A stretch of DNA of 64,000 nucleotides from a virus. Shown here piece by piece: positions 44,612 to 50,245 of this stretch. The first letter of the stretch is position 1; each line of letters begins with the position of its first letter. The notes below the pieces were generated by a model. The model was given only the letters and a program-made list of their open reading frames with translations. It did no database searches and was not told the origin of the DNA. The DNA lies in IMG/VR virus record IMGVR_UViG_3300009149_000012, positions 84,882 through 148,881 of that record; one strand, 5' to 3'. The position numbers and the translations under genes are program-made.

Positions 44612-44623
44612 ACCAGCCTCTAA

Positions 44624-44675
44624 GTTCCGCTGAGGATTTGAACCTCTTGACGCGTCTGCCTGCCAGGCACGGAAC
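44624..44675 (-). tRNA. tRNA-like RNA lacking a D-arm
   Basis: Ends GTTCCG and CGGAAC pair; a T-arm with loop TTCAAAT is present; and CTGGCAG, identical to the Ala(GGC) anticodon loop, sits in a 3-bp stem. The D-arm is absent and the total is about 52 bases. Either a decayed tRNA or a minimal tRNA-like RNA. Confidence 0.45.
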
Positions 44676-44679
44676 CTAG

Positions 44680-44750
44680 TTGCGGGAGATGGATTCGAAC
44701 CAACCAAGGAATGGCTTATGAGGCCATCCCGGGCGCCAGCCCTTCCCGCA
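44680..44750 (-). tRNA. tRNA-Met(CAT)
   Basis: Acceptor TGCGGGA/TCCCGCA, anticodon loop CTCATAA in ATGGC/GCCAT, T-loop TTCGAAT, discriminator A. The anticodon stem lacks the three G-C pairs of initiators, so elongator Met (or Ile after lysidine modification) is more likely. Confidence 0.78.
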
Positions 44751-44867: not shown

Positions 44868-45323
44868 CTAGTAATCGTAATCGGCACGGGGACTTGAATC
44901 CGTCATGCCGTACCCTCGAAGCCACCTTCGGTTCTGCTCCGTGTGGGTGAACTGGGAAAAGGTTTCCCATGCGTCCGTTCGGCCTTCGCCCGGCTTTCGC
45001 TTGGGTAGGGGCTTGGCTTCCCCTGTGAGGTGGTCGTACTGCGTGGGGCCCGGGATGTGGTCCTCCGTGATCGAGAGAAGCTTCGTGGGAGGAAGCCCCG
45101 GGAAGATCGGATGCTCGTAGATACGCATGCCGTAGCCACCGAACATCTTGCTCGGGAACATCTGCGTCAGGAGTCGATGCGTTTTGATGACCTTGAGCAC
45201 CCGGTCGAAGTCAAGCTGGGGAAGCTCCCCCTCGGGTTTCCAATCAAGCGAACAGTTGTCGCCATGCTTGGGCCAAAGTCGAGCATGAAGCTCCCGCATC
45301 CATTCTAAGTCAGTTTCTTCCAT
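44868..45323 (-). CDS. Hypothetical protein starting at a tRNA-like CCA end
   Basis: 151 residues from ATG at 45323, whose A is the last base of the CCA of the tRNA-like element upstream. Pro/Gly-containing alpha/beta protein (MRIYEHPIFPGLPPTKLLSI). No family recognised. After the stop, an AGCCCA...TGGGCT hairpin may end the transcript. Confidence 0.6.
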   Translation of the reverse strand: MEETDLEWMRELHARLWPKHGDNCSLDWKPEGELPQLDFDRVLKVIKTHRLLTQMFPSKMFGGYGMRIYEHPIFPGLPPTKLLSITEDHIPGPTQYDHLTGEAKPLPKRKPGEGRTDAWETFSQFTHTEQNRRWLRGYGMTDSSPRADYDY

Positions 45324-45393
45324 GGTGGAGTCGGCCGGAATCGAACCGGCACCTGGGAGTTAGCGCCCCCTGCTCTACCTGCACCAGGGCCCC
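45323..45393 (-). pseudogene. Degenerate tRNA-like element with CCA
   Basis: T-arm GCCGG-TTCGATT-CCGGC, 3' acceptor CGACTCC with discriminator A and CCA are intact, but the 5' acceptor strand (GGGGCCC) pairs poorly and the anticodon loop (GCGCTAA or CGCTAA) lacks T33. Anticodon GCT is possible. The CCA overlaps the ATG of the next gene. Confidence 0.5.
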
Positions 45394-45452
45394 CGGGGAA
45401 CAGCGCTATTCTTGCCGGGTAGCATCCGATGAACTTGAGCTACAACCCCTTC

Positions 45453-46552: not shown

Positions 46553-46636
46553 CGGTCTGGGTGGGATTCGAACCCACACCTCCGAGTTTACCACAGCATA
46601 CGCTTCTCGGCATTCTACCGTTAAACCACCTCTCGA
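46553..46636 (-). pseudogene. tRNA-like element with 19-base anticodon loop
   Basis: Anticodon stem CCGAG/CTCGG encloses 19 bases that include a small AGC-GTAT-GCT hairpin. T-arm GTGGG-TTCGAAT-CCCAC and a D-arm are present; the acceptor strands pair poorly. Either a tRNA with an insertion in the anticodon loop or a broken copy. Confidence 0.45.
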
Positions 46637-46795
46637 ACTGCCCTCATAGGCGTCACCACCATCCTCTTCCCACCCTGATCCGATGTCTCCAAGCATGACC
46701 TGTCCAGGCCCTTCCCCTGGCTCACGGTTTTTATAGCGTTAGCTGTGGTTATCATGCGAGTGAACACCGGGGGCTTTCCGCATCCGATGGCTACT

Positions 46796-49561: not shown

Positions 49562-49570
49562 AAATTTGCT

Positions 49571-49638
49571 GGGAAGAGGCTGGAAGTGAACCAGCCCACC
49601 GCACGCTGATCATACGTGTGTGCTCAACCGAGCTTCCT
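49571..49638 (-). pseudogene. Degenerate tRNA-like element (Ile GAT-like)
   Basis: Anticodon loop ATGATCA in CACGT/GCGTG, T-arm GCTGG-TTCACTT-CCAGC, D-arm reduced to GCTC-GGTT-GAGC. Acceptor strands pair at only 5 positions and the T-loop is atypical. Confidence 0.45.
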
Positions 49639-49644
49639 GGCAGA

Positions 49645-49671
49645 GGTGAAAGGAATCGAACCTTCCCTTAG
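49645..49671 (-). pseudogene. T-arm remnant
   Basis: An isolated GAAGG-TTCGATT-CCTTT T-arm with a short 3' strand lies next to the mini tRNA-Trp; no 5' half. Confidence 0.4.
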
Positions 49672-49729
49672 CGAGCCAGGCAGGAATCGAACCTGCTACC
49701 AGCGGTTTTGGAGACCGCCGAGCTGCCTC
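49672..49729 (-). tRNA. Minimal tRNA-Trp(CCA) without a D-arm
   Basis: Acceptor GAGGCAG/CTGGCTC (6 of 7 pairs), then only CTCG, anticodon arm GCGGT-CTCCAAA-ACCGC, variable TGGTA, perfect T-arm GCAGG-TTCGATT-CCTGC, discriminator G. Total about 58 bases. It is the only Trp anticodon in the window. Its 5' end touches the stop of the HNH gene at 49728. Confidence 0.6.
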
Positions 49730-50153
49730 AGCATTCTGACCCTCGTGTCCATCCATTTTCCTTCGCTGTCTTGCGACGATGGCAGTTGGCACAACGTATC
49801 TCACACTTCTCAAGCTCTTTCTGTACGGCTTCCCATGTGCGACCGGAAGTCAGCATCTTGGCGATCCCCGAAGCCTTCCGGCCACGCACATGGTCGGCAT
49901 CGAGTACCACCGGGTCTGATTCACCGCAATCCACACACTTCTGGGTAGCCAGCCACACCCGGTACGCTTTTTTGACCTTGCGCTTGTTCGCAAGAGCACG
50001 GTCTTTGTATGGTTGCGGATGGTTGCGGTAGTGCTCCTTGCGGTACAACCGAAGACAATCAGGACAGGCCGATTGCCTCCAGCCTTTCGCTTGGTTCTTA
50101 AAGGCGTAGGTTTCTTCGGGAAGATCGTCCCCACACCGAGAGCAATGCTTCAT
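49728..50153 (-). CDS. HNH endonuclease with zinc finger
   Basis: 141 residues from ATG at 50153 (an ATG two codons earlier is also possible). An N-terminal zinc finger (KHCSRCGDDLPEETYAF, CPDCLRLYR) is followed by QKCVDCGESDPVVLDADHVRGRKASGIAKML...EIRCANCHRRKTAKEN, the HNH fold of phage homing enzymes. It is distinct from the other HNH genes. Its TGA overlaps the minimal tRNA-Trp. Confidence 0.87.
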   Translation of the reverse strand: MKHCSRCGDDLPEETYAFKNQAKGWRQSACPDCLRLYRKEHYRNHPQPYKDRALANKRKVKKAYRVWLATQKCVDCGESDPVVLDADHVRGRKASGIAKMLTSGRTWEAVQKELEKCEIRCANCHRRKTAKENGWTRGSEC

Positions 50154-50245
50154 ACCCATGAGCGAAGTGTAGCACATGGTACTCCAAAGGCAAGACTCGG
50201 TTTTGGAGACCAATTCGCCGCCTTGGAACATGCACCCCTAAATAG

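Follow-up and report, generated by a model that had tools for sequence, protein, structure and literature searches.

Canonical tRNAs carry U8 and A9 ahead of a D stem formed by positions 10-13 and 22-25, a D-loop of at least seven nucleotides that includes A14, G18 and G19, and a single base at position 26. A short D-loop is found in tRNAPyl, in which one base lies between the acceptor and the D stem. For tRNATrp, G73 and the CCA anticodon are the main determinants for the bacterial TrpRS. Bacterial tRNASec combines a 6 bp D stem with a 4-nt D-loop (PMC7609411), and an engineered tRNA with the entire D-arm removed is accepted by HisS, EF-Tu and the ribosome of E. coli (PMC11551756). Here, a viral tRNATrp gene is analyzed whose D-arm consists of a 4-bp stem and a 3-nt loop instead of the usual 7-10 nt. 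Dozens of other phages have this miniature arm too, with compensating base changes, which suggests a genuine tRNA design that has gone largely unnoticed, as opposed to a damaged gene. A search of the open-access literature found no description of a tRNATrp whose D-arm has a 3-nt loop. Shortened D-loops in general have been described for tRNASec (PMC7609411).

The tRNATrp gene and its 5' end

The analyzed stretch of DNA (the window, 64,000 nt) spans bases 84,882-148,881 of the 148,881-b IMG/VR record IMGVR_UViG_3300009149_000012, a phage with genes for UvsX, a clamp loader, NAD ligase and GroEL and with a cluster of 44 tRNAs and a tmRNA (ARAGORN). A tRNATrp was called by ARAGORN at complement(49671..49742), the Rfam tRNA model matched 49742-49672 with 34.9 bits, and a Trp-specific model (R1) scored 59.6 bits (Table 1). 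The gene shows a 7 bp acceptor stem, a CCA anticodon, a T-arm and G73, as expected of tRNATrp(CCA), and its CCA tail is only partly encoded (GCTA, with C74 at 49671). Read from 5' to 3', the sequence is GGGUCAG-AAU-GCUG AGG CAGC-UCG-GCGGU CUCCAAA ACCGC-UGGUA-GCAGG UUCGAUU CCUGC-CUGGCUC-G73 C. The preliminary description was right in placing a tRNATrp here, in regarding it as the only one (no second tRNATrp was detected in the 148,881-b record) and in finding its anticodon and T-arms well formed, both being fully paired.

Table 1. Features of the tRNATrp locus in the window and D-arms of compact tRNATrp genes in related phages.
Feature	Position	Strand	Details
tRNATrp(CCA) gene	49672..49742	(-)	71 nt including discriminator G73 (49672); ARAGORN, Rfam, Trp-specific model R1, alignment with 8 phage tRNATrp
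True 5' acceptor strand	49736..49742	(-)	GGGUCAG; pairs 7/7 with CUGGCUC (49673-49679); identical in Salutena (L022) and G054 (L333)
Compact D-arm	49722..49732	(-)	GCUG (49732-49729), loop AGG (49728-49726), CAGC (49725-49722); MFE fold and covarying stems in relatives
D-arm linkers	49735-49733; 49721-49719	(-)	AAU; UCG
Anticodon arm	49702..49718	(-)	GCGGU-CUCCAAA-ACCGC; anticodon CCA 49711-49709, 5 bp stem; sequence
T-arm	49680..49696	(-)	GCAGG-UUCGAUU-CCUGC; sequence
False 5' acceptor strand (58-nt reading)	49723..49729	(-)	GAGGCAG; 6/7 with G-G mismatch; spans D stem and loop
HNH endonuclease ORF	49728..50231	(-)	phrog_2255, E=6.6e-33; final 15 nt, TGA stop included, coincide with tRNATrp nt 1-15
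D-arm, G054 (L333)			GCUA-AGG-UAGC
D-arm, G013 and G020			GCGU-AGG-ACGC
D-arm, G021			GCAA-AGG-UUGU
D-arm, G053			GUGC-AGG-GCAC
D-arm, G044			GCCA-AGG-UGGC
D-arm, G001 and G034			GGCUA-AGG-UAGCC
D-arm, G031			GUCA-UGG-UGAC
D-arm, G014 and G008			4-bp stem with 5-nt loop

The same description had given the tRNA a total of 58 bases, with about four bases where the D-arm should be. A well-paired acceptor stem does exist, as was claimed, but with another 5' strand than the one chosen: the partner 13 nt upstream of the 58-nt start (49729) forms all seven pairs, whereas the chosen strand forms six around a mismatch. Among 11 offsets, a 7/7 partner arises in 1.7% of random sequences and a 6/7 partner in approximately 19%. 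The 72-nt RNA is also predicted to fold more stably than the 58-nt RNA (-31.0 vs -25.1 kcal/mol). Because of this pairing, the more stable fold and the identity of the 5' acceptor strand with that of phage Salutena, the 5' end is placed at 49742, so that the gene covers 71 nt plus C74 and its D domain (AAU GCUG AGG CAGC UCG) has 17 nt and not four. The 58-nt form still has its six acceptor pairs, and blastn matches to other tRNATrp often start near its 5' end; its lower stability and G-G mismatch, the conservation of the upstream acceptor strand in Salutena and G054 and the covariation of the D-hairpin make it barely credible. A D-armless tRNA has no D stem and 4-5 nt joining the acceptor and anticodon arms. 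The proposed likeness to D-armless mitochondrial tRNAs is not borne out, as the 17-nt domain contains a covarying stem and a conserved loop with GG. The locus is a real tRNATrp gene that had been drawn wrongly in the 58-nt reading.

That the D region is strongly non-standard, and that this could be of consequence, was correctly noticed. ARAGORN draws a single D pair in this gene (fewer than three D pairs are drawn in 22 of 778 other phage tRNAs), Rfam left the D-arm out of its alignment, and A8, the 3-nt loop and the 3-nt linkers all depart from the canonical arm. In a first survey, 120 other viral tRNATrp had the usual D-arm of approximately 18-21 nt and none was compact; the pattern employed (GTNG in the variable region) disfavours compact genes, and 1/121 is therefore no measure of frequency. 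We define compact D-arm tRNATrp by a D domain of 14-17 nt, a stem of 4-5 bp and an NGG triloop, all of which are found in the window gene. In this class, 0-3 nt precede the stem and 2-3 nt follow it, compared with the standard arrangement of 2 nt, a 4 bp stem with a 7-10 nt loop, and 1 nt. As 12% of shuffled 17-mers also yield such a hairpin, the single sequence proves little and relatives are needed.

Several unusual elements lie in the same tRNA cluster. Directly downstream of tRNATrp, positions 49638-49670 hold an orphan T-arm and a 3' acceptor strand with CCA (GAAGG TTCGATT CCTTT CACCTCT GCCA). An odd tRNA 3 kb away (46553-46640) begins with AGAGGTG, the missing partner of the orphan 3' acceptor; its own 3' strand CCAGACC misfits, and its anticodon stem bears a 19-nt loop. 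Are these two elements swapped or split halves? In the tRNA at 45323-45450, with a 7/7 acceptor (GGGGTTG/CGACTCC), the D stem GCTC/GAGC is split by an insertion of approximately 50 nt and the 6-nt anticodon loop is read 'ct' by ARAGORN. A tRNA-like element at 44619-44675 combines a 7/7 acceptor with a T-arm and a small D-hairpin but has no anticodon arm (GTTCCGT GCCTGGCAGGC AGACGCGTCA AGAGG TTCAAAT CCTCA GCGGAAC), and an Ile(GAU)-like remnant at 49567-49643 (D-hairpin GCTC-GGTT-GAGC, only 5 acceptor pairs) receives no ARAGORN call. A second compact arm in this genome belongs to tRNAMet(CAT) at 44679-44750, with a 16-nt D domain (GGGC-UGGC-GCCC).

Covariation and distribution of the compact D-arm

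Two relatives of the phage that carry a similar tRNA cluster were found by a GroEL search at 52-55% identity, and a three-sequence Dda-helicase alignment added approximately 30 at 43-49% as well as more distant ones. Searches with the HNH, DNA ligase and vWA proteins alone found no relatives, and the helicase alignment gave only distant matches (30-36% identity) in bacterial assemblies. In the relative G001, a tRNATrp missed by ARAGORN was recognized (ACGGCGG-A-GGCUA AGG UAGCC-GG). A pattern consisting only of the anticodon loop and the T-loop retrieved 12 compact tRNATrp from 65 related records (D-arms in Table 1), and GG is kept in 12/12 of them without having been required by the pattern. 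G028 carries two tRNATrp, one of them short, and a search for a TTCCAG-type Trp in the related records lacking a pattern match gave no clear tRNA. The gene of G054, whose helicase falls in a clade distant from that of the window phage, differs from the window gene at seven positions; all pairs stay intact, two of them through changes of both partners. Across the 12 genes, pairing in the D helix amounts to 83% and three of its five pairs show both-side changes; the covariation score of the D, anticodon and T helices is 0.62, compared with 0.06-0.15 when partners are slid. On the helicase tree the compact form is scattered and does not follow the branching, which would fit an exchange of tRNAs or a change that occurred repeatedly.

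IMG/VR was scanned with a pattern that fixed the outer G-C pair, an (A/U)GG loop, CUCCAAA and UUCGAUUC but put no constraint on the three inner D pairs. Among the matches listed, 82 of 86 distinct hits form all three inner pairs; shuffling the partners of these 86 gives a mean of 13.4 and a maximum of 23, which is strong evidence from comparative sequence data that the arm is a selected structure. At least 28 different stems and at least 68 full compact genes were obtained, with G73 in 68/68 among the matches listed; in 35 of the 41 linker-bearing genes among these matches, the linker begins with A. ARAGORN calls a tRNATrp in just 31 of 86 listed loci that hold one, so counts of phage tRNA repertoires are too low. 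None of 799 genomes from two bacterial phyla matched a slightly looser pattern; the compact class may be viral, on a bacterial sampling limited to these two phyla. Only partial tRNA-like matches (under 60%) were obtained from plasmids. Under a stricter test, 13 of 1,473 tRNAs of other isotypes at the same loci are compact, mostly Cys and Met; a permissive all-isotype test was dropped since an ordinary 7-nt loop can also pass for a long stem closed by a small loop. Compact D-arms with TGG triloops also occur in tRNACys(GCA) genes (L433, L436, L441, L443, L450, L394) on contigs that carry compact tRNATrp.

Cultured phages also carry the compact gene. It was found at full length and 84-100% identity in 22 Acinetobacter phage records (saclayviruses). 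There it is usually missing from the annotation or overlaps a feature labelled GroES or hypothetical protein; the overlap with groES lies at the end of that gene. Acinetobacter phage records such as L465, L466 and L474-L476 miss or bury the gene beside groES, an annotation that can be corrected. The stem differs by a compensated change between AM24 and Mithridates (CCAC-UGG-GUGG) and phiAbaA1 (CCGC-UGG-GCGG; KJ628499, labelled tRNA-Trp), and Streptomyces phage phiHau3 (JX182369) has GCGC-GUGG-GCGC with a 4-nt loop.

Predicted function and alternative explanations

Judged from its sequence, the gene very probably encodes a working elongator tRNATrp that decodes UGG with a compact D-arm. The conserved GG and the normal T-loop suggest that the elbow contacts survive: the GG of the NGG loop would meet the T-loop (G18-psi55, G19-C56) and keep the L shape in miniature. 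Once transcribed, the tRNA would be accepted by the RNase P, CCA enzyme and EF-Tu of the host and charged by host TrpRS via the anticodon and G73 for use in translation. Charging by the host enzyme is expected because the gene retains both G73 and the CCA anticodon and a search of 23 lineage records found no TrpRS-type protein (PF00579); co-adaptation with a phage TrpRS was accordingly dropped (0/23). Host acceptance of the compact arm is plausible by analogy, as the D-arm-less tRNA tolerated in E. coli suggests (PMC11551756). Co-adaptation with RNase P was likewise discarded as an overall explanation, since only 2 of 34 records contain an RNase P RNA. In two related phages, a class A RNase P RNA (RF00010, 263 and 300 bits) adjoins tRNATrp (L314:1135-1487 in G020; L480 in G028). 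Against a working tRNA count the absence of U8, which is rare throughout the compact class, the low ARAGORN recovery (far from the norm), the fold energies of some relatives, which are no better than those of shuffled sequences, and the scattered distribution on the helicase tree.

Decay into a pseudogene, perhaps through damage from the HNH gene with which the tRNA shares its first 15 nt, would fit the clearly broken tRNA pieces in the cluster, such as the orphan T-arm at 49665, and the HNH stop codon that falls inside the D domain. Decay, however, would not keep pairing. The three perfect arms, the compensatory changes and the presence of an identical triloop in phages that are only distant relatives make this explanation highly improbable, and it is in the main refuted by the IMG/VR scan. 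Only marginally better placed is the idea that the altered D-arm lets the tRNA read UGA as well as UGG, like a Hirsh-type suppressor, and thereby pass stops such as the in-frame TGA of an SGNH-like ORF (37141-37139, VEPL*KLAVTEG), as had been suggested. D-arm changes in E. coli tRNATrp are established to raise UGA reading, and a 4-bp anticodon stem with an open top pair has been linked to it (PMC13092985). Some other compact genes have such an open top pair; among the matches listed, 27-43 is unpaired in 30/68 and 31-39 in 16/68. The window gene, in contrast, has a 5 bp anticodon stem (GCGGU/ACCGC), and position 24 of its proposed D stem is G as in the wild type. TGA is moreover the commonest stop in the window, ending 22 of 37 long ORFs, and is not depleted in carriers of the compact gene (TGA use 0.61, 0.65 and 0.59 in phages with compact, canonical and no detected tRNATrp). 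A homologue of the SGNH gene that would give the expected residue at the TGA was not found in the phage collection, and the suggested link receives no support. Open anticodon-stem pairs (C31.A39 or 27-43), a feature associated with UGA reading (PMC13092985), occur in many viral tRNATrp (L305-L333 and the scan list).

Why phages would use the compact form is addressed more tentatively. The NGG 3-nt D-loop on a short D stem could possibly be a phage-specific architecture, widespread in tRNATrp and present in some tRNACys and tRNAMet, that was selected for a viral need, such as evasion of host enzymes that cut tRNAs in defence or modify them, or a tuning of decoding. Loss of modification sites or escape from tRNA-cutting defence is our leading guess, and a rather speculative one. 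The narrower proposal that the arm was selected to hide a working tRNATrp from host defence or modification enzymes is more doubtful still. Candidate targets would be anticodon nucleases and elbow-reading enzymes; the gene offers no U8 for 4-thiouridine and no D-loop uridines for dihydrouridine. In its favour are the detection of the compact form in many viral contigs, as against 0/799 bacterial genomes searched with a similar pattern, the prevalence of A at the first linker base and the known existence of phage tRNAs that counter host tRNA cleavage (AriB/PARIS work, PMC12409363). Against it, the missing modification sites may simply be a side effect and the bacterial sample covers two phyla only. 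The compact tRNATrp would provide natural substrates for studying the elbow needs of RNase P, TrpRS, EF-Tu and the ribosome, and would also let one ask why phages drop standard modification sites.

Comparison with known tRNAs

The tRNATrp of Streptomyces phage Salutena (MT708548), a canonical one, shares the GGGUCAG acceptor strand, the anticodon arm, the T-arm and G73 with the window gene. Its D-arm, however, is ordinary (GCUC-AACUGGUA-GAGC after U8 A9), whereas the window gene has GCUG-AGG-CAGC between AAU and UCG linkers. A short D-loop on an intact D stem is also a feature of tRNASec, from which the window gene differs in sequence by lacking the 6 bp D stem, the 13-bp acceptor domain and the long variable arm. 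The likeness to tRNAPyl lies in the shortened D-loop and, in some compact members, the single 5' linker base; the window gene differs in its Trp anticodon, its 5-nt variable loop and the GG kept in the D-loop. D-armless mitochondrial tRNASer and the engineered mini HisT (PMC9427863, PMC11551756) likewise have a reduced D domain but lack any D stem, whereas stem and loop are present and conserved here. The tRNATrp genes of phiAbaA1 and phiHau3 carry a compact D-arm, as the window gene does, and were annotated as ordinary tRNATrp, the arm not being remarked on.
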